64,000 nucleotides of DNA, taken from positions 1-64,000 of the forward strand of contig NZ_QLME01000002.1 of assembly GCF_003259895.1 (NCBI RefSeq). The letters are read 5' to 3'. Of this stretch, positions 32,052 through 46,280 are shown one piece after another. The first letter of the stretch is position 1. Each line of letters opens with the position of its first letter. The notes beneath the pieces were generated by a model. That model was not told where the DNA came from, did no database searches, and saw nothing but the letters and a program-made list of their open reading frames with translations. A program made the position numbers and the translations under genes. This DNA comes from Halanaerobium saccharolyticum (GTDB lineage: Bacteria; Bacillota; Halanaerobiia; Halanaerobiales; Halanaerobiaceae).

Positions 32052-34784
32052 ATGAATAAGAAAGAAGAGATTTTTGAAATTTCTATGAAATTAGCAGATA
32101 GTAATCAAGATAAAGGTTTAACTGCTAGGGTAATTGCTAAAGAAGCAAATATTTCACGTTCTAATGCAAGTCGTTACTTAAATGAGCTTGTTAAAGACGG
32201 TAAAATGAGAAAAATTAAAGGGAGACCAGTTAAATATCAGATAATAAAAAGTAATAATGATAATGTAAAGAAAATTGATAAAATTATCGGAGCGGAAAGC
32301 AGTTTGAGGATTTCTGTTCAGCAGGCTAAAGCAGCAATATTATATCCTCCGGATGGACTGCATACACTTTTACTCGGGGAAACTGGAGTTGGCAAGTCAT
32401 TTTTTGCAAAATTAATGTATAATTTTGCTGTTGAAGAATCAGTGCTGAAATCAGGTGCTCCTTTTGTCCAATTTAATTGTGCGGATTATGCGGATAATCC
32501 GCAGCTTTTAATGGGACAGCTTTTTGGAGTAAAAAAAGGAGCATATACCGGGGCCAATAAAGATTCAAACGGATTATTAAAAAATGCAGATGGAGGAATG
32601 TTATTCTTAGATGAAGTACATCGATTACCTCCACAGGGCCAGGAAATGTTATTTACCTTTATAGATAACGGATTTTTTAGGATGTTAGGAGATACTGATA
32701 AAACTATCGAAGCAGATGTAAAGATTGTTGCTGCTACCACAGAGTCTCCCGGGTCGTATTTATTAAAGACTTTTCAAAGAAGAATACCTATGGTTATAGA
32801 ATTACCTGCACTATCAGAAAGAACTCTGGAAGAAAGATATAAATTAATCGAGAGTTTTATTAAAAATGAAGAAAAAAGAGTTGGTCAGGAAATTTTAATG
32901 TATAAAAATGCTTTAAAATCATTTTTATTATATGACTGCAAAAATAATATTGGGCAATTAAAAAGTGATATTCAGCTGGCCTGCGCAAAGTCGTTTTTAA
33001 ATTATAAATCAAAAAACAATCAGAAAATTGACCTACTTAAAATTGGTCAGGAAGAATTACCACACCATGTCAAAAAAGGAATTATGAACTTGCCAGATAA
33101 AAGAAAAGAATTAGATGATATTATTAAAAATAAAAGCAATCTAATATCTTTTAGTAATGATATTAATATTAATAATAATCAGGCAAGAAAACCTGCGAAA
33201 ATAGCAGATAAAAATTATATGTTTTATGATGTAATAGAAGAAAAGATTTCTGTTTTAGAAGAAAATGGATTAAATAAAAATGAAATAAGTGAGATTTTAA
33301 ATATTGATATAGAAAAACATTTTAAAAATTATATTGGCGACTTGCCAAAAAATTTCAAAAAGAGTAAGATAGATAAGATAGTTGGGGAAGAAATAGTAAG
33401 TTTGGTTGAAGAAATATTTAAATTGGCTGAAAATAGACTAAATAGAAGTTATGATGAAAAAATATATTATGGACTTGCTCTTCATTTAAAAAGGAGTATT
33501 GCAAGAATAAAAAACGGGGAAAAGATTTATCATCCAAATTTAGATGAAATAAGATCAGATCACTCCCAGGAATTTATTACTGCAATGGAAATTGCTTCAA
33601 TGATTGATGAGAAATTTTCTTTAAAAACACCACTTGATGAAATTGGTTATTTAAGTATGTTTCTTACTGAAAAGCCCTATAACTATGGTAAAAATGATTT
33701 AAAAAAAGTTGGCATTTTAGTAATAATGCATGGTAGAGCTGCTGCAACAAGCATGACAGAAGTAGTTAATAATTTAATTGGAGAGCAGCATGCTGAAGCT
33801 ATTGATATGCCGCTGGCAATGAATCCTCAAGAGGCATATCAGCAGGCAAAGGATAAAGTAGTAGATTTAAATAATGGTGGCGGGGTCTTAATAATGGTTG
33901 ATATGGGTTCTTTAAGCAGTTTTGGAGAAATGATTGAAGAAGAAACCGGAGTAAAGACAAAAACGATTACAATGAGCAGTACGCCTACTATTTTAGAAGC
34001 TTCAAGAAAAGCAGTTTTGGGTGATGAACTAGAAGATATAATATATTCAGTTGAAGAAATTGGAAAAGAAAGTTATCAGCAAAAATTTGAAAAGTCTCTG
34101 AGTTTTGGAGAAAAAGAAAAAATAATAGATAAAAAACATAAAAAGAGATTAGCTGTTGTTACTGCCTGTTTTACAGGAGATGGAGCAGCAGTGAAGTTAA
34201 AAGATTTACTGGAAGAAGAATTAGAACTTGATAGAAATTTTAGTTTGATAACTTTACAATTAATGAATAAAGATGATTTAAAAAAAGAGATAAAAGAGCT
34301 TAAAAGCAAATACAAAGTATTAGCTGTTGTTGGTACAATAAATTTTGATATAAAAGATATTCAATACTTTTCAGCTGCAGATATTTTTACAGGTGATGCG
34401 ATTAATAAATTAAAGAAATTAATTGATAGAGAAGAAATGTATCAGGAGATGAAAAAATCATTAATTGATCAATTTAAATATCTTGATAGTTTTAAGATTG
34501 TAGAAGAATTAAGAGACATAATTAGTAGAATTGAAAATAAATTAAATAAAGATATTGATTCTGGAATTGAACTTGGAATTTTACTGCATATGGCATATAT
34601 GATCGAAAATGTTTTAGCAGGTGGAGAAAATAATAAATTTAAAAACATAGAGGAATATAGTAAAAAAAATAGAGTTAATCTGGAATTATTAAAAGGAATA
34701 GTAAATGATATTGAAGTGACATATAATATTGAGATAGATAAAAATGAACTTGCTTATATATTAGAAATGTTTCAAAATAATTAA
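32052..34784 (+). CDS. LevR/ManR-type sigma-54 activator with PRD and EIIA domains
   Basis: PTS-controlled transcription activator of 910 residues. Order: N-terminal winged HTH (about 1-65); AAA+ sigma-54 domain (about 80-320) with Walker A GETGVGKS at 109-116, a GAYTGA loop at 163-168 for contact with sigma-54, and Walker B LFLDEVH at 184-190; PRD1 around H478; an EIIA-Man-like domain with the phosphorylatable H560 in VIMHGRAAATS; an EIIB-like segment; and PRD2 near the C-terminus (LLHMAYMIENVL). GAYTGA differs from the common GAFTGA by one aromatic swap also used in working activators. It lies directly upstream of a PTS operon preceded by a -24/-12 promoter, its evident target. Confidence 0.93.
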   Translation: MNKKEEIFEISMKLADSNQDKGLTARVIAKEANISRSNASRYLNELVKDGKMRKIKGRPVKYQIIKSNNDNVKKIDKIIGAESSLRISVQQAKAAILYPPDGLHTLLLGETGVGKSFFAKLMYNFAVEESVLKSGAPFVQFNCADYADNPQLLMGQLFGVKKGAYTGANKDSNGLLKNADGGMLFLDEVHRLPPQGQEMLFTFIDNGFFRMLGDTDKTIEADVKIVAATTESPGSYLLKTFQRRIPMVIELPALSERTLEERYKLIESFIKNEEKRVGQEILMYKNALKSFLLYDCKNNIGQLKSDIQLACAKSFLNYKSKNNQKIDLLKIGQEELPHHVKKGIMNLPDKRKELDDIIKNKSNLISFSNDININNNQARKPAKIADKNYMFYDVIEEKISVLEENGLNKNEISEILNIDIEKHFKNYIGDLPKNFKKSKIDKIVGEEIVSLVEEIFKLAENRLNRSYDEKIYYGLALHLKRSIARIKNGEKIYHPNLDEIRSDHSQEFITAMEIASMIDEKFSLKTPLDEIGYLSMFLTEKPYNYGKNDLKKVGILVIMHGRAAATSMTEVVNNLIGEQHAEAIDMPLAMNPQEAYQQAKDKVVDLNNGGGVLIMVDMGSLSSFGEMIEEETGVKTKTITMSSTPTILEASRKAVLGDELEDIIYSVEEIGKESYQQKFEKSLSFGEKEKIIDKKHKKRLAVVTACFTGDGAAVKLKDLLEEELELDRNFSLITLQLMNKDDLKKEIKELKSKYKVLAVVGTINFDIKDIQYFSAADIFTGDAINKLKKLIDREEMYQEMKKSLIDQFKYLDSFKIVEELRDIISRIENKLNKDIDSGIELGILLHMAYMIENVLAGGENNKFKNIEEYSKKNRVNLELLKGIVNDIEVTYNIEIDKNELAYILEMFQNN

Positions 34785-34952: not shown

Positions 34953-34971
34953 TCTGGCATAGATAATGCAT
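34953..34971 (+). promoter_or_regulatory. Sigma-54 (-24/-12) promoter of the PTS-sulfatase operon
   Basis: TGGCAT, five bases, ATGCA: the invariant GG (34956-34957) and GC (34968-34969) are exactly 10 bases apart as sigma-54 requires. It lies 105 bases upstream of the EIIB gene and downstream of the LevR-type activator gene. Confidence 0.8.
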
Positions 34972-35075: not shown

Positions 35076-35384
35076 ATGAATATTTTATTAGTATGTGCTG
35101 CAGGAATGTCAACAAGTCTGGTTGTTAATAAGATGAAAAAAGCGTTAACTGAAGAAGAAAAAAACTGGACAATTGAGGCTCAGCCAGTTGATTCTCTAGA
35201 AGAAGTGATTGATGATTATGATGTTATTCTATTAGGACCTCAAATTAAGTATAAAGCAGATGAAATCAATAAAATTGGAGATGAATACAATACACCTGTT
35301 GGAGTTGTTGATTCTAAAGATTATGGTATGGGTAAGGGAAGAAATATTCTTAATCAAGCAATTAAATTAAAAGAAAACTATTAA
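35076..35384 (+). CDS. PTS EIIB, lactose/cellobiose family
   Basis: Phosphate-transfer subunit of 102 residues. The phospho-cysteine is C7 in LLVCAAGMSTS, the standard P-loop of this family, and the fold continues with VILLGPQIKYK. It passes phosphate from the separate EIIA (38307-38633) to the sugar bound by EIIC. AAGGGGGAT lies before the ATG. First gene after the sigma-54 promoter, 22 bases from the EIIC gene. Confidence 0.93.
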   Translation: MNILLVCAAGMSTSLVVNKMKKALTEEEKNWTIEAQPVDSLEEVIDDYDVILLGPQIKYKADEINKIGDEYNTPVGVVDSKDYGMGKGRNILNQAIKLKENY

Positions 35385-35406
35385 AAACAAAAGGGGGATT
35401 ATTATA

Positions 35407-36735
35407 ATGGGTTTTTTTGAAAAAATGCAGGGATTTGTAGAAAATAAATTTGCTCCAATAGCTAATAAAGTTAGTAATCAAAGGCATGTTACGGCAATAA
35501 AAAAAGGTCTTATTACTACGTTGCCATTAACAATAATTGGTGGTGTTGCTTTAATCTTGGCAGTTCCTCCAGTTGATACAGAAATAATTCAACCAACTAA
35601 TTTCTTTAATAGATTTTTACTTATGTGGAAAAGTTGGGCCACTGCTAATAATTCTATGTTAATGACACCATATAATTTATCTTTAGGTTTATTGGGGCTT
35701 TTTGTAGTAATAGGAGTTTCATATTTTTTATCAGAAAAATATGAGATAAACAAAATATCTGGCGTTATTACTTCGCTATTCACATTTTTGGTAGTTGCTG
35801 CTCCAACTCAAGCTGATAATCCAGCTGGTTTTATCTCAAGCAATTATTTAGATGCAAAAGGTATGTTTTCAGGAATAATCATTGCCATTATTACTGTGGA
35901 AATAACAAAATTTCTGCTAGAAAAAAATATAAAAATTAAAATGCCTGATGAAGTTCCTCCTATGGTAGCAGCTCCATTTGAAGCATTAATTCCAATAATA
36001 GTAAACGTTGTAGTGTTTATGTCATTAAATAGTCTGGTATTGTCATTATTAAATATGTCTATTCCAGAAATTTCTTTGAAAATTTTTGAACCTATTGTGA
36101 TAGCATCTAATACTTTACCTGGTGTTTTATTAGTAATAATAGTTATAAATTTTCTCTGGTTCTTTGGTATACATGGAGGAGCGGTAGCTAATAGTGTGAT
36201 TGTTCCAATTATTACAGCAAATGTTGCAGCGAATGCAGAAGCAGTTGCTCAAGGAGCAGCAATGCCCTATATTTTTTCAGGTAGATTTGTAAATCTTTTT
36301 GCAAATCTTGGTGGTTCAGGTGCTGCTTTGTCATTAGCGTTAGCAATGATTATTGTAGCTAAATCAAGCCATCTCAAGTCAGTTTCAAAAGTAGGTTTAG
36401 TACCCGCATTTTTTGGAATTAGTGAACCATTAGTTTTTTCAACTCCAATGATTATGAATCCCATGATCTTTTTTCCGATGGTTTTTGTTCCCATAATAAA
36501 TGCCTCAATTACTTATTTTACTATGTCTACAGGTTTAGTTGGAAAAATATATGTTAATGTCCCATTTACGACTCCAGGTCCTTTTGGTTCATTTTTATCA
36601 ACTATGGATTGGAGAGCGGCAGTTTTATGGTTTGTTTTAATAACAATTGATGTGATTATTTATATGCCTTTTGTTAAAGGGTATGATAAACAAATGTTAG
36701 AAGAAGAACAAGTTAGTGAGGTAGAAGCAGCTTAA
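35407..36735 (+). CDS. PTS EIIC, cellobiose/lactose family permease
   Basis: Membrane channel and sugar-binding unit, 442 residues, about ten helices. Typical family segments: amphipathic start MGFFEKMQGFVENKFAPIANKVSNQRH, LWFFGIHGG, GGSGAALSLALAMI and FFGISEPLVFSTPMIMNP. EIIA, EIIB and EIIC are all separate genes here, the cellobiose/chitobiose layout. Family substrates are beta-linked disaccharides and glucosides. The sulfatase gene starts 20 bases downstream, so a sulfated beta-glycoside is a reasonable guess for the substrate. Confidence 0.93.
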   Translation: MGFFEKMQGFVENKFAPIANKVSNQRHVTAIKKGLITTLPLTIIGGVALILAVPPVDTEIIQPTNFFNRFLLMWKSWATANNSMLMTPYNLSLGLLGLFVVIGVSYFLSEKYEINKISGVITSLFTFLVVAAPTQADNPAGFISSNYLDAKGMFSGIIIAIITVEITKFLLEKNIKIKMPDEVPPMVAAPFEALIPIIVNVVVFMSLNSLVLSLLNMSIPEISLKIFEPIVIASNTLPGVLLVIIVINFLWFFGIHGGAVANSVIVPIITANVAANAEAVAQGAAMPYIFSGRFVNLFANLGGSGAALSLALAMIIVAKSSHLKSVSKVGLVPAFFGISEPLVFSTPMIMNPMIFFPMVFVPIINASITYFTMSTGLVGKIYVNVPFTTPGPFGSFLSTMDWRAAVLWFVLITIDVIIYMPFVKGYDKQMLEEEQVSEVEAA

Positions 36736-36755
36736 TAAAGAGGGGAGTCACAAAA

Positions 36756-38216
36756 ATGAGTAAACCAAATTTAGTAATATTTATTGCTGATCAGATGAGA
36801 GCAGATTCTTTATCTCATTTGGGTAATAAGGCTTCTAAAACACCAAATTTAGATAAAATAGTTCAGGAAGATGGAGTTTCATTTAAAAACAATTATTGTC
36901 AGAATACTGTTTGTGTTCCCAGTCGTTCAAGTTTTCTAACTGGTTGGTATCCACATACTAAAGGTCATCGAACAATGCACTATTTATTAGAAGAAGATGA
37001 TCCCATGCTTTTAAAAACACTAAAAAATAATGGATATAATGTTCAGTGGATTGGCAGAAACGATGTAATTCCTGCTGATAAAAGTTTAGATGATTATTGC
37101 AACTCATATTATAGTGGGTATGATAAAGTTAGTGAGGAAGAAAGGAAAAAATCTAGCAAGTGGAAAGAAAAATATCGGGGAGAAAACGACAGTGAAAGTT
37201 TTTATTCGTTTTTAGCTGGTAAAAGTGATAAAAATATTCCTTTTGTTCAGTATGATTGGAATTGTATAAATCGAGCTTTAAATTTTATAGATAATTATAA
37301 TGATGAGCAGCCATTCTGTATATATATATCTTTGATTTTCCCCCATCCACCTTATGGTGCAGAAGAACCCTGGTATAGTTTAATTGACAGAAATAAAGTG
37401 AGATCTCCGAGACCAGTACCAGAGGATTGGGATCAAAAAGCCTCAATGTTAAAAGGTATATATGACCGTCAAAATCTGAAAAACTGGAATGAAGATAGAT
37501 TTAAAGAATTAAGAGCTGTATATCTTGGTATGGTAGCACGAGTAGATCACCATTTTGGGATGCTTGTTAATAAGCTTAAAGAAAAAGAGTTATATAATAA
37601 TACCTCTATGATATTTTTTGCTGATCATGGTGATTACACTGGGGATTATGGTATAGTAGAGAAAAGTCAAAACACATTTGAAGATCCTGTTAGTAATGTA
37701 CCATTAATTATCAAACCACATAAAGGAATTAAGGTGAAACCGAGGGTTACAAAATCTTTAAGTGAACTAGTTGATTTATCTGCAACTGTTGCTGATTTAA
37801 CAAATATTGAATTAGAACATATACAATTTGGTGAATCTGTAGTGCCTGTACTCGAAGGAGAAGAAAAGCATAAAGATGCTGTTTTTGCTGAAGGTGGCAG
37901 AATACATGGAGAAACTCAGGCTATGGAAAAAGGACATGGTCCTGAATCAGAATATTGGCCACGCTTAAATACTCAGGAACAAGAAGGTCCTGAGCATACA
38001 AAAGCTGTTATGATAAGAATGGGTAAATTAAAATATATAGAAAGACTTTATGAAAAAAATGAACTATATAATTTAGAAAGTGATCCAGATGAATTAAATA
38101 ACTTAATATGTAGTGAAGATTATCAAGATCAAATTATTAAATTCAAAGCAAGATTATTGAAGTTTTATATGGAAACAGCTGACTATGTACCAGATAGAAA
38201 AGACAAAAGATATTAA
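36756..38216 (+). CDS. Cytoplasmic type-I sulfatase (formylglycine type)
   Basis: Hydrolyses a sulfate ester with a formylglycine nucleophile. 486 residues. C53-V-P55-S-R57 in NTVCVPSRSSFLTG is the C-x-P-x-R maturation motif, so C53 should become formylglycine. Metal ligands are seen at D12/Q13 (FIADQMRAD) and in FFADHGDYTGDYG. No signal peptide or membrane helix is present, so it acts in the cytoplasm, unlike most polysaccharide sulfatases. Lying inside a PTS operon, its likely substrate is the phosphorylated sulfated sugar after import. Its activating enzyme is probably the radical-SAM maturase at 44049-45290. Confidence 0.92.
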   Translation: MSKPNLVIFIADQMRADSLSHLGNKASKTPNLDKIVQEDGVSFKNNYCQNTVCVPSRSSFLTGWYPHTKGHRTMHYLLEEDDPMLLKTLKNNGYNVQWIGRNDVIPADKSLDDYCNSYYSGYDKVSEEERKKSSKWKEKYRGENDSESFYSFLAGKSDKNIPFVQYDWNCINRALNFIDNYNDEQPFCIYISLIFPHPPYGAEEPWYSLIDRNKVRSPRPVPEDWDQKASMLKGIYDRQNLKNWNEDRFKELRAVYLGMVARVDHHFGMLVNKLKEKELYNNTSMIFFADHGDYTGDYGIVEKSQNTFEDPVSNVPLIIKPHKGIKVKPRVTKSLSELVDLSATVADLTNIELEHIQFGESVVPVLEGEEKHKDAVFAEGGRIHGETQAMEKGHGPESEYWPRLNTQEQEGPEHTKAVMIRMGKLKYIERLYEKNELYNLESDPDELNNLICSEDYQDQIIKFKARLLKFYMETADYVPDRKDKRY

Positions 38217-38223
38217 TATAAAT

Positions 38224-38274
38224 GTTATACTGTAGTAATAAGATTATTATTATTTATAAGGGCTACAGTATAAC
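38224..38274 (+). repeat. 12-bp perfect inverted repeat within the PTS-sulfatase operon
   Basis: GTTATACTGTAG at 38224-38235 and CTACAGTATAAC at 38263-38274 are exact reverse complements with a 27-base loop. No T-run follows. It sits between the sulfatase stop and the EIIA start, where it may tune mRNA stability or read-through. Confidence 0.75.
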
Positions 38275-38306
38275 TATAATCATTCTAAAATTTAGGAGAG
38301 ATTAAG

Positions 38307-38633
38307 ATGACAAATGAAGAAATTATATTTAAAATAATAACGGAAGCGGGAGACGCTAAATCCTTGGCATTTGAGGCGCTCAAAGAAGCTAGAAAAGGTG
38401 ACTTTAAAAAAGCGAGAAAAAAATTAAAAAAAGCAAATAAAAACTTTAATAATGCACATGATGTTCAAACTGATTTAATATCTAAAGAGGCAAATGGGCA
38501 AAAGAATGAAGTTAGTATCCTTATGGTTCATGCTCAAGATCATCTTACTAGTGCAACCCTTGCTAAAGATTTAATAAAAGAAATGGTAAAAATGCAGGAA
38601 GAAATATTTAACTTAAAGGAAAACAAACAATAA
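38307..38633 (+). CDS. PTS EIIA, lactose/cellobiose family
   Basis: Takes phosphate from HPr and passes it to EIIB. 108 residues, all-helical trimer-forming family. The active histidine is H75 with D78 in MVHAQDHL, as in the lactose EIIA active site. A lysine-rich helix (KKARKKLKKANK) covers residues 34-45. AGGAGAG is before the ATG. Placement after the sulfatase rather than beside EIIB/EIIC shows that the sulfatase is embedded within the PTS operon. Confidence 0.92.
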   Translation: MTNEEIIFKIITEAGDAKSLAFEALKEARKGDFKKARKKLKKANKNFNNAHDVQTDLISKEANGQKNEVSILMVHAQDHLTSATLAKDLIKEMVKMQEEIFNLKENKQ

Positions 38634-38656
38634 TTTAAGTGAGATTGGTAAAGTAT

Positions 38657-38932
38657 ATGTAAAAAAAGAAAAAAGTAATGATTGAAAATAGAACAGGTCT
38701 TCACGCAAGACCGGCCTCTCAGTTCGTACAGAAAGTAGGAAAGTTTAGTTCAGAAATTAAAGTCATTTTTAAAGACAAAGAAGTAAACGCAAAAAGTATT
38801 ATGGGATTAATGAGTCTCGGAATAGGAAAAGGAAATGAAATAACTGTTAAAGCAGAGGGTAGTGATGCTGATGAAGCAGTAGAAGAACTTATTGATTTTA
38901 TAGAAGTTGAACTATTAAAAGAAGATAAGTAA
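38657..38932 (+). pseudogene. HPr-family phosphocarrier with a stop at codon 2
   Basis: HPr relays phosphate from enzyme I to EIIA. From ATG 38678 the frame gives 84 residues with the active histidine (TGLHARPAS, H9) and the HPr-kinase serine in AKSIMGLMSL (S40). HPr normally has that His near position 15 and starts with a short strand. Here six such codons lie upstream, preceded by ATG TAA at 38657-38662: the natural start is followed at once by a stop. Translation may restart at 38678, which has only a weak ribosome site and lacks the first strand. The gene is thus damaged or poorly expressed unless the base call is wrong. Confidence 0.75.
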
Positions 38933-40423
<1,491 letters not shown>

Positions 40424-40449
40424 TTTGATTTAAAAAATATTAGATTTGA

Positions 40450-41892
<1,443 letters not shown>

Positions 41893-42112
41893 ATTAGAAA
41901 TCTGGAGATTGGACTAAATATGCTAAGTTATATAAAATATATTTAAGGAAATCTCCTGCTTGAAAAATTGAGTGATAGTGTATTTAAAGATGATAAATCA
42001 AAGGTGGAAAATTTTTATCAGGTAGCTTTAATGAAAAAGGTGGGCTTTCTATTGAAGCAGTAATTATTGTAAATTTTTTTATTTCCCAAAAAAAAGATAA
42101 ATTAAATACTAA

Positions 42113-42301
42113 AAAATAGCAAAAGCTATTGTAGATAAACAAAAATATTTTTTTGATAAAGGTCTAAAACATATTTATATTATGACTATGAAGGAAATAC
42201 CTCAAAAGCTCGGAATGCACGAATCCACCGTTAGTAGGGCAACCACAGCTAAATATAAAAAAAAGATTGGTCTCAATAATTCTAGAAATAGAAAAGCATA
42301 A
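42113..42301 (+). pseudogene. rpoN: C-terminal relic of sigma-54 gene rpoN
   Basis: The frame reads KIAKAIVDKQKYFFDKGLKH, then MTMKEIPQKLGMHESTVSRA, matching the HTH region of sigma-54 (FF-x-KG, LTLKE-x-A-x-x-LGMHESTVSRA). It is followed by an altered tail and a stop. A stop precedes the segment at 42110 and the RpoN box (ARRTVAKYRE) is not found. Bases 41893-42112 hold no readable sigma-54 core or intact gene, only A+T-rich DNA with short frames. The copy is dead, so a working rpoN must exist elsewhere for the -24/-12 promoter to function. Confidence 0.8.
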
Positions 42302-42337
42302 AATTTATAATTCAGAATATAAGGGAGCATAAATGCT

Positions 42338-43993
42338 TTGATTTTAAAAAATATATTTAATAATTATAAAAATGATATGATAAGCGGGCTGACAACTGCT
42401 ACAATTGCTCTACCCCAAAACATGGCCTATGCTTTGATCCTTGGCATAAATCCAATTTATGGAATTTATGCCTCCATTTTTTCGATGCTTACTGCCTCTA
42501 TTTTTAATTTCTCATCATATGTGATTGTCGGACCAACGAATATGATGGCCGTTGCTCTGTTTAGTAGTTTAAGTAATTTCCAGGGTGAAAATTATCTGCA
42601 GACTATATTTTTAACTACATTTTTAATCGGACTCTTTCAATTTTTACTCGTCAGTTTTAATTTAAGCGAATTAATCAAATATGTATCCCATCCAGTAATT
42701 GTTGCTCTTTCCCATGGAGCTGCTGTTTTAATTCTTTTTTCCCAGATCGAAAATTTTACCGGAGTCAACGTTTCAGGCTCAAATGTCATCACCAAAGGCT
42801 GGCGGTTTATTAAAAATTTAGAACAGATTAATTTTATTAATCTCGGAGTTGGATTTTTAACTCTAATTTTAATCTACCTAATTCCACAAATCAAAAAAGA
42901 GCTGCCTGAATATCTGCTGACAGTTATTATTATGACAATCTTTACGGCAGTAAGTGGGCTTAACAGTTCAATTTCTTTAGTTGGAGAAATTCCAAAAAGA
43001 ATTATTGATTTTAATTTAATTAACTTTGACTGGCATCTAGTCGGTCAGCTTTATAGCAAGGCTTTTTCAATAGCTCTTTTAGGACTGATCCAGACAATGG
43101 CTGTCCTCCAGGCAATTTCTTTAAAAACTGATGAGGAACCTGATTTTGACCGAGAATTTAGAAGCCAGGGAATCAGCAATATGGTTATTTCATTTTTTAG
43201 TGCCTTTGCTATTTCAGCTTCTTTTTCCAACACCTTTGCTAACTTAAGCGCTGGCGCCAGACACAGAATCTCTCAGTTTTTCTGTGCCCTTTCGATTATA
43301 ATTTTTATTTTGTTTTTTAGACCACTTTTAGCCTACATTCCAGTAGCTGTGCTGGCTGGTCTGGTTATCGCTGCTGCAGCGGGAATTGCGGATTTTAAAG
43401 AAGTTATTAAAAATATGAAAACCACCAAAGGAGATGCTTTAATTTTCTGGTCAACTTTTACCGCCACAATTGTACTGCCCAACCTTGACCAGGCAATCTA
43501 TTTTGGAGTTATGGTCTCACTGGTTGTTGTTTTACAGATTTCTAAAAAAGCAGATATCGAAATGCTCTATTATGATAAAAAAGAAGGAGATCAGGGATAT
43601 CATCTCCACCATGCTCATCATGAGGAAGCAGATGAATCTGAGATTTCTGCTAAACAGGCAAGAGTAGTCGACCTCAAAGGAGCTGTTCATTTTAGTGCTG
43701 CTGATGATTTAAAAGATCAGCTGGAAGAATTTTTTGCTAAAGACACAGATTTTATTATTCGTTTTCGCAATGTAAGGAGAATTGACATCACAATCATTGG
43801 AGTTTTAGAAGAATTTATTGATCAGGTTCAGGCCAGTGGTGGTGAGGTAATGCTTACCGGAGTCAATGAAAAGATTCTTAAGATGTTTAGGAAGATTGGT
43901 CTGGCTGATAAAGTTGGCGAAAATAATATTTATTTGCCAGAGACTGAATATTTTGCAGCCACCAATAAAGCTTTAAATTATTCTAATAATTAA
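42338..43993 (+). CDS. SulP-family anion (sulfate) transporter with STAS domain
   Basis: Secondary transporter of 551 residues: about 12-14 helices to residue 410, then a STAS domain at about 435-545 (VDLKGAVHFSAADDL, RIDITIIGVLEEF). The N-terminal signature GLTTATIALPQNMAYALILGINPIYGIYA is typical for SulP. Start is TTG with AAGGGAG upstream; an ATG at 42377 would cut 13 residues. SulP proteins carry sulfate, bicarbonate or dicarboxylates. Lying between a sulfatase operon and its maturase, sulfate is the natural guess; whether it exports freed sulfate or imports it cannot be told. Confidence 0.88.
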   Translation: MILKNIFNNYKNDMISGLTTATIALPQNMAYALILGINPIYGIYASIFSMLTASIFNFSSYVIVGPTNMMAVALFSSLSNFQGENYLQTIFLTTFLIGLFQFLLVSFNLSELIKYVSHPVIVALSHGAAVLILFSQIENFTGVNVSGSNVITKGWRFIKNLEQINFINLGVGFLTLILIYLIPQIKKELPEYLLTVIIMTIFTAVSGLNSSISLVGEIPKRIIDFNLINFDWHLVGQLYSKAFSIALLGLIQTMAVLQAISLKTDEEPDFDREFRSQGISNMVISFFSAFAISASFSNTFANLSAGARHRISQFFCALSIIIFILFFRPLLAYIPVAVLAGLVIAAAAGIADFKEVIKNMKTTKGDALIFWSTFTATIVLPNLDQAIYFGVMVSLVVVLQISKKADIEMLYYDKKEGDQGYHLHHAHHEEADESEISAKQARVVDLKGAVHFSAADDLKDQLEEFFAKDTDFIIRFRNVRRIDITIIGVLEEFIDQVQASGGEVMLTGVNEKILKMFRKIGLADKVGENNIYLPETEYFAATNKALNYSNN

Positions 43994-44048
43994 AAGAATA
44001 AATATATGTAGTTAAATAATGAAAGACAATTATGGGAGTTTGATTTTT

Positions 44049-45290
44049 ATGAAAGTGAAAAAACAACATTTCAATCTAATGGCTTTTCCAGCAGGTCCGG
44101 TCTGCAACTTAGACTGTGAATACTGCTATTACCTAAAAAAGACAGAACTTTATCCGGAAAAAAGCGATTTTCAGATGTCAGAAGGAACTTTGGAGGAATA
44201 TATCAAACAATATATAGAAGCTCAGGCCGGTCCGGTAGTTAATTTTGGTTGGCAGGGAGGAGAACCTACCTTAAGAGGGCTAGATTTCTTCAAAAAAGCA
44301 GTTGAGTTACAAAAGAAATATGCTCCAGATAGTTGGAAAATAGAAAACTCAATCCAGACCAATGCAGTTTTAATAGATGACCAGTGGGCTGAGTTTTTAA
44401 AAGAGAACAACTTTTTAGTTGGAGTAAGTCTTGATGGCCCAGCAGAGCTGCATAATAGATACAGAAAAGATAAAGAGAGTAAGGGCACTCATCAAAAAGT
44501 AATGGCAGGAATTGAAAAGCTGAAAGAATATGAAGTGGTATATAATATTTTAGCAGTAGTAAATGATCTGAACACTAAAAACCCGAAAGAAGTTTATCAA
44601 TTTTTTAAAGAAATTGGAACTGATTTTATTCAGTTTATCCCTATTGTTGAGCAGGATCAGGATGGAAATATAATATCTCGTTCGGTGGGCTCAAAAGAAT
44701 ATGGTAAATTTTTAATAGGAGTTTTCAATGAATGGATTGATGATCTGGGAGATATTTATGTCCAGATATTTGAAGAAGCTTTATCAGCCTGGGCTGGTTT
44801 TGGAGCTAACTTATGTGTTTTTAGTGAGGAATGTGGCAAAGGACCAGTAATGGAGTATAATGGAGATCTATATGCCTGTGATCATTTTGTTGAGTCAGAA
44901 TTCAAACTTGGTAATATTAATGATAAAAGTATTTTAGAGATGATGAATTCTGAACAACAAAAGCAATTTGGAAAAGCAAAAAAGAAAAAGTTAAATAAAA
45001 AGTGCTTGGAATGTGAGTACTTATTTTTCTGTAATGGAGGTTGTCCTAAAAACAGAATAGTTGATACAGGTGATGATTATAAGCTGAATTATCTCTGTGA
45101 GGGTTATAAGTTGTTTTTTAACTATGTTAATCCTTTTATGAAAAAGTTAGCTCAGATGGTCAAGCAGAGAAAATCACCATCAGTAATGAAAAAAGAAATG
45201 CAGAATCTATATCAGGAAAAATGGAATGCAGGCAGAAATGATCCCTGTCCCTGTGGAAGTGGGAAGAAGTATAAGAAGTGCTGTTTGTAA
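44049..45290 (+). CDS. Anaerobic sulfatase-maturating enzyme (radical SAM, SPASM) with SEC-C tail
   Basis: Converts the active-site Cys or Ser of sulfatases to formylglycine without oxygen. 413 residues from ATG 44049, which has GGGAG upstream; the earlier ATG at 44019 has no ribosome site. The radical-SAM motif is C19-NLD-C23-EY-C26; GWQGGEPTLRG and VSLDGPAELHNRYR are family segments. The SPASM cluster cysteines lie in CVFSEECGKG, YACDHF and CLECEYLFFCNGGCPKNR. The last residues form a SEC-C zinc motif, CPCGSGKKYKKCC. Its client is most likely the C-x-P-x-R sulfatase at 36756-38216. Confidence 0.92.
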   Translation: MKVKKQHFNLMAFPAGPVCNLDCEYCYYLKKTELYPEKSDFQMSEGTLEEYIKQYIEAQAGPVVNFGWQGGEPTLRGLDFFKKAVELQKKYAPDSWKIENSIQTNAVLIDDQWAEFLKENNFLVGVSLDGPAELHNRYRKDKESKGTHQKVMAGIEKLKEYEVVYNILAVVNDLNTKNPKEVYQFFKEIGTDFIQFIPIVEQDQDGNIISRSVGSKEYGKFLIGVFNEWIDDLGDIYVQIFEEALSAWAGFGANLCVFSEECGKGPVMEYNGDLYACDHFVESEFKLGNINDKSILEMMNSEQQKQFGKAKKKKLNKKCLECEYLFFCNGGCPKNRIVDTGDDYKLNYLCEGYKLFFNYVNPFMKKLAQMVKQRKSPSVMKKEMQNLYQEKWNAGRNDPCPCGSGKKYKKCCL

Positions 45291-45334: not shown

Positions 45335-46280
45335 ATGGAAAAAAAGTGGTGGCATGACAAAATGATTTATCAGGTTTATCTTAAAAGCTTTAATGACAGC
45401 AATAGAGATGGAATCGGTGATGTTCCTGGTATAATAGAAAAGTTTGATTATTTAAATAAGCTGGGAATTGATATTATCTGGCTCAGTCCGGTATACAGTT
45501 CCCCCATGAAGGATAACGGCTATGATATAGATGATTATTATTCAATTGGTGATGAGTTTGGAACAACGGCTGAGATGGAAAAATTAATCGCTGAAGCAAA
45601 AAAGAGAGACTGGTATATCTGGAAAGATCCGAAAGAAAATAGTAATCCCCCAACAAACTGGCGCTCTGTTTTTGGCGGCTCTGCCGGGAGCTATGATCAG
45701 CAGACTGGTCAGTATTATCTTCATACTTTTGCTGAAGAACAGCCGGATTTAAACTGGGAGAATAAAGAGCTAAGACAGGAATTACACAAAATGGTTAACT
45801 GGTGGCTGGATAGAGGTCTGGCAGGCTTTAGAGTCGATGCAATTAGTTTTATTAAAAAGAATGAGTACAAAGATTTAAAGCCTGATGAAGATGATGGTCT
45901 GGCTTAAAGTTAATCCCAATTATAAAGAAGTTAATGTCGAAAAAGTACTGGCTGATCCTGATTCGTTATTTTATTTTTATCAGAAGTTGATCAAACTGCG
46001 CCAGGAAAGCATTTATGCAGAAACTCTAATAGATGGAAGCTATCAGCAACTGCTAGAGGAAAATCAGGATTCAATGGCCTATTTTAGAATCGGATCTGAG
46101 AAAAAAGTACTGGTTATTGCCAATTTTAGAAGTGAAAAAATTAATTTAGAACTGAATTATCAAATAAGAAAGTTAATTTTAAGCAATTATACTGACGGCG
46201 AAGGAAGGTTAAAAGCAGCTCAAGGTAAGATTAATTATATATTTAGACCTTTTGAGACCCTGGTTCTGGAAGTTGAATAA
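45335..46280 (+). pseudogene. Collapsed GH13 alpha-glucosidase/oligo-1,6-glucosidase
   Basis: The first part reads a normal GH13 N-terminus (WWHDKMIYQVYLKSFNDSNRDGIGD, WLSPVYSSP, NGYDIDDY) up to AEAKKRD, then jumps to WYIWKDPKE: the segment with MDLVVNHTSDEH between is gone. The nucleophile region GFRVDAISF remains. After DEDDG the frame stops at 45907; in another frame from 45885 the C-terminal part continues (VWLKVNPNYKEVNVEK to the stop at 46280). The middle of the barrel, with the acid/base Glu and transition-state Asp, is lost. At least two deletions have made it non-functional. Confidence 0.88.

Follow-up and report, generated by a model that had tools for sequence, protein, structure and literature searches.

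A remnant of a second sigma-54 gene beside a LevR/PTS locus of Halanaerobium saccharolyticum

Positions 41995-42301 of the DNA stretch that we analyzed, the 64,000 nucleotides of C2:1-64000 from Halanaerobium saccharolyticum (hereafter the window), were confirmed to be a dead remnant of the sigma-54 gene rpoN. Sigma-54 binds core RNA polymerase and reads –24/–12 promoters; it is switched on by AAA+ activators, LevR among them. We consider it probable (about 0.82) that the remnant records the decay of a redundant second sigma-54 gene (rpoN2), and that the intact rpoN of the same genome now supplies sigma-54 in trans to the LevR-type activator of the adjacent locus. By itself this is a modest pseudogene finding; it presents a case of a second sigma-54 gene being lost with the resident copy present, and it suggests that sigma-54 in Halanaerobium falls into two lineages.

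Remnant blocks in the window

The earlier note on this DNA had read a fragment here as a dead rpoN gene, and this reading held. The Pfam profile Sigma54_DBD (PF04552), the DNA-binding domain with the HTH, matched C2:42092-42259 across two in-frame TAA codons (52.6 bits, E = 8.5e-14, profile positions 20-75). Local alignment with the rpoN2 pseudogene of a congener (G003) gave three collinear blocks, each scoring above all 500 dinucleotide shuffles:

41995..42085, + strand: rpoN2 remnant block 1, core-binding domain shred GKFLSGSFNEKGGLSIE (alignment score 68 versus a shuffle maximum of 41; tblastn E = 3e-4)
42089..42257, + strand: rpoN2 remnant block 2, HTH region FFDKGL...MHESTVSRATTAKY, behind in-frame stops (PF04552, 52.6 bits; alignment score 119 versus a shuffle maximum of 40)
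42241..42301, + strand: rpoN2 remnant block 3, TAKYKKKIGLNNSRNRKA plus stop codon, from the C-terminal RpoN-box half through the tail (alignment)

The aligned part of block 3 (42241-42295) scored 50 against a shuffle maximum of 31, and the terminal stop codon lies at 42299-42301. The HTH had been described as readable, which is correct, and the core and the RpoN box as missing, which is not: a core-binding shred of ~28 residues persists at 41997-42080, and of the RpoN box (ARRTVAKYR) the C-terminal half, TAKYKKK, alone is left after a 204-bp deletion. No recognizable trace of region I or of the first box half is left; the loss of region I is what one expects of a deleted remnant and is no argument against an rpoN origin. 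A region I in 41893-41994 looked plausible to the eye and was ruled out by the shuffles, 243 of 500 of which reached the score of this segment against G003 rpoN2; the recognizable remnant thus begins near 41995. Because of stops in all frames and deletions, the remnant has no uninterrupted full-length frame; in translation, one frame of the region reads FFDKGLKHIYIMTMKEIPQKLGMHESTVSRATTAKYKKKIGLNNSRNRKA, with stop codons ahead of this sequence. No RNA family of Rfam was detected in 41700-42500 at E values up to 1.

The LevR/PTS locus and the gene order around rpoN2

The features that surround the remnant are as follows:

32052..34784, + strand: LevR-type sigma-54 activator, intact (AAA+, two PRD stretches, EIIA-man; Pfam)
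34955..34970, + strand: –24/–12 promoter-like site TGGCATAGATAATGCA ahead of the PTS operon (motif match)
35076..41892, + strand: PTS EIIB, EIIC, sulfatase, PTS EIIA, HPr and two GH1 genes (Pfam)
42338..43993, + strand: SulP gene of the sulfate permease family (protein 94% identical to those of G007 and G010)
44019..45290, + strand: anSME, anaerobic sulfatase-maturase type radical SAM gene (Pfam Radical_SAM and SPASM)

The LevR-type activator that had been recognized in this locus is indeed present and intact, with its AAA+, PRD and EIIA domains, beside PTS genes of the lactose/cellobiose type. The motif TGGNATN5ATGCA has its sole match in the window at 34955 and, followed by a TATATAAG-like sequence, precedes the first operon gene both here and in four congeners (G001, G002, G004 and G009). 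A consensus search for –24/–12 sites in the window alone did not exceed chance; the recurrence of the motif in the four congeners makes it likely that the locus is sigma-54 dependent. The –12 element begins with either A or T; that this difference follows the rpoN lineage was rejected, since more than one rpoN type goes with the A form.

Control of PTS by LevR/CelR-like activators is general in sigma-54-bearing Firmicutes (PMC3162934). The window operon resembles these systems in its PRD/EIIA-man LevR-type activator, lactose/cellobiose-type PTS, GH1 and –24/–12 site, whereas it differs in that it includes a sulfatase, adjoins the maturase and SulP genes and once had rpoN nearby. The sulfatase (36756-38216) contains a CxPSR motif and, on reading, no obvious signal peptide; its place inside a PTS operon suggests that the removal of sulfate from sulfated sugars is intracellular. 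No close relative of this sulfatase was found in a contig scan with it.

We sampled 12 genomes of the genus and 59 of the wider class. One other congener, G003, carries an extra rpoN in addition to its main one, a fuller pseudogene with two frameshifts and two stops that ends 20 bp upstream of the orthologue (79%) of the window's anSME gene, its direct neighbour. The G003 locus also holds orthologues of the UbiD-UbiA-UbiX-SsuA-SsuC block and the NAD-epimerase of the window; DNA identities, the maturase included, are 79–85%, the Ubi–Ssu block near rpoN2 being at 79%. A relative with rpoN at this place had been called for, and G003 provides it beside the same anSME, although no genome had an intact copy between GH1 and SulP. 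Only two of the 12 genus genomes thus carry rpoN2, both copies being dead, and no functional rpoN2 was seen at the maturase site in any of them. In G008, the sister of the present genome by rpoB, the maturase occupies the same chromosomal region, but rpoN2 is absent from it.

The gene order varies around this site: the operon of G009 ends GH1-anSME with nothing between, rpoN2 abuts anSME in G003, and the window has the remnant and SulP between GH1 and anSME. The SulP coding DNA is 92% identical to the G007 copy, and the similarity ends at the gene edges, the flanks not being shared. Because the SulP protein is closer to those of G007 and G010 than to the second SulP of its own genome (83%, on C11), and because the flanks are not shared, SulP probably inserted later, separating the rpoN2 remnant from anSME. 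The interval between GH1 and SulP, where the earlier note had proposed to look for an intact copy in relatives, would then not be the ancestral place of rpoN2. In G002 (L115, C1:88000-107999), the maturase has another SulP paralogue (38% identity) as its immediate neighbour, and the pairing of SulP with the maturase may have arisen more than once. On the far side of anSME, at 45335-46280, an alpha-amylase family gene is reduced to a pair of short, overlapping frames, of which the second matches only profile positions 403-440; apparently this is another decayed gene beside the locus.

The arrangement bears on a broader proposal, namely that LevR, PTS, glycosidases, sulfatase and maturase formed a mobile module that passed whole from one species to another with its own sigma-54, the rpoN then being lost in a host that already bore one. 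A carbohydrate/sulfate-ester PTS locus would thereby have travelled with a dedicated pair of sigma-54 and LevR, and sigma-54 would be an accessory gene of the genus that comes in two lineages, can be exchanged and has been lost repeatedly. The earlier note's idea is of this kind: a locus that once had a sigma factor of its own and may have moved as a unit. We regard this as possible but rather unlikely. LevR, PTS, GH1, the remnant and anSME are contiguous in the window apart from SulP; rpoN2 and anSME stand together in G003, where an insertion sequence encoding a transposase of the Mutator family ends ~40 bp upstream of the rpoN2 start; related copies of this insertion sequence flank the anSME-SulP region of G002; and linkage of rpoN with LevR recurs in the class (G003, G007 and G008 at one place, G052 separately). 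However, LevR/PTS/GH1 with an intact rpoN2 was present in no genome examined. The closest LevR loci (G001, G002 and G004; 62–66% identity) and the LevR...GH1-anSME locus of G009 lack rpoN, rpoN2 and the maturase of G003 have no LevR/PTS beside them, and SulP seems to be a separate arrival. None of the LevR, rpoN and anSME loci that were inspected across the class had the whole module including an intact rpoN. Rearrangement at the locus is evident, and the insertion sequence of G003 fits local reshuffling and is no proof of a mobile module.

Two rpoN lineages in Halanaerobium

A search for an intact rpoN, proposed earlier as a check, found exactly one in the 99.97% complete genome, on contig C12 (L003 5956-7059, 367 aa), adjoining deoD and hlyIII; it contains activator-interacting, partial core-binding and DNA-binding domains (Pfam). 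A third rpoN copy was not found in this genome. Among congeners (rpoN loci G000-G009), rpoN varies strongly, with about 49–84% identity to the C12 protein, and lies in several different neighbourhoods; deoD (79–98% identical) is near several of them.

The rpoN2 protein of G003 shows 74% identity to the product of the single G005 rpoN, compared with about 48% to that of the main G003 gene. In the tree, G003 rpoN2 and G005 rpoN cluster with a support of 100/100, and AU tests reject the placement of G003 rpoN2 with the main rpoN of G003 (p = 7e-38) as well as inside the main-rpoN clade (p = 1e-4). This grouping and these rejections indicate two rpoN lineages in the genus; rpoN2 belongs to the second of them and did not arise by duplication of the resident gene. 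The G005 gene, its closest relative, differs in that it is intact, is the only rpoN of its genome and lies beside glutamyl-tRNA reductase and genes unrelated to the window locus. The two lineages may stem from an old duplication with differential loss or from transfer, and the rpoB tree, which leaves G003, G005 and others unresolved, favours neither. A conflict between the rpoN and rpoB trees was considered as proof of gene replacement and rejected, because an rpoB-type grouping is compatible with the rpoN data (p = 0.087).

At its short length, the remnant cannot be placed firmly in the tree (end branch 1.6). Its tie to rpoN2 comes instead from the DNA blocks, from the neighbour gene and from diagnostic residues, namely the remnant-specific matches FFDKGL, GSFNEKG and the tail NNSRNRK. 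It is very improbable that the fragment is a duplicate or partial copy of the main rpoN of its own genome. The remnant has 73% DNA identity to the C12 gene over 133 bases, but its match to G003 rpoN2 is longer and stronger and extends over three blocks (E = 5.6e-22, 5.6e-8 and 1.5e-5), the tail and core residues are common to these two, and rpoN2 stands firmly outside the main clade.

Several rpoN copies were reported in about 5% of organisms surveyed (PMC12316311). Multi-rpoN bacteria such as Rhodobacter/Cereibacter, Ralstonia, Xanthomonas and Bradyrhizobium likewise have a second sigma-54 gene beside the resident one, whereas both second copies found in Halanaerobium are pseudogenes. Our literature search for Halanaerobium together with rpoN yielded nothing but an unrelated genome paper on Planctomyces.

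In the wider class, G034, a genome of another genus (77% complete), contains two full matches to the rpoN DNA-binding domain (G034:C233:215-676 and G034:C115:912-1376) in frames open over 450 and 445 aa, on small contigs and near contig ends in both cases; a second rpoN or contamination is possible. Weak PF04552 matches elsewhere in the class (about 20–27 bits, mostly short HTH stretches) were rejected as rpoN copies. Matches in L014, L015 and G025:C1:1354358-1354510 are weak, cover the C-terminal part of the sigma-54 DNA-binding profile (102-158) and lie in frames of 974–989 aa that also match LevR.

Decay of rpoN2

Compared with the remnant, G003 rpoN2 has a core-to-HTH distance that is ~280 bp longer and an HTH-to-RpoN-box distance that is 204 bp longer, and AAATATA occurs at both edges of the latter. 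Successive internal deletions, one of them between the short AAATATA repeats, would fit this spacing. In the HTH block, the remnant and G003 rpoN2 differ at 14/3/21 sites of codon positions 1/2/3, compared with 5/3/23 for two intact main rpoN genes, and the pattern suggests relaxed constraint on the remnant/G003 rpoN2 pair.

It is most improbable that the cell still produces the 62-residue open stretch, in which the HTH runs into the RpoN-box half, as a small protein that binds DNA as a decoy: the HTH-to-tail deletion is in frame and the HTH-tail frame is open to 42301, but the frame is preserved automatically, because the KY codons form the repeat, which counts against a decoy, as do a frame that starts after stops and in which the first ATG leaves about 39 residues, the lack on reading of a ribosome-binding site at normal spacing, and the excess of first-position changes in the HTH.

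Decay of a redundant rpoN2 would proceed as follows. The gene, presumably an ordinary sigma-54 of the genus type when intact, would once have sat just upstream of anSME, downstream of or near the LevR-controlled PTS/glycosidase operon. We infer that it was functional, served this locus and was lost through redundancy. Stop codons and two or more internal deletions, among them the one between AAATATA repeats, broke the gene. The promoter at 34955 is now presumably served in trans by the sigma-54 encoded on C12.

The shortened core-binding domain common to the intact sigma-54 genes of the genus may merit more attention. The genus proteins (L003:5956-7059 and those of G001-G009) have open frames of 366–386 aa where complete, and Pfam matches only parts of their core-binding domain. 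The same block of ~75 core-binding residues, including the motif DPxGIGARxLQESL, is missing from all of them; in other class members, sigma-54 has 431–489 aa and includes this block.
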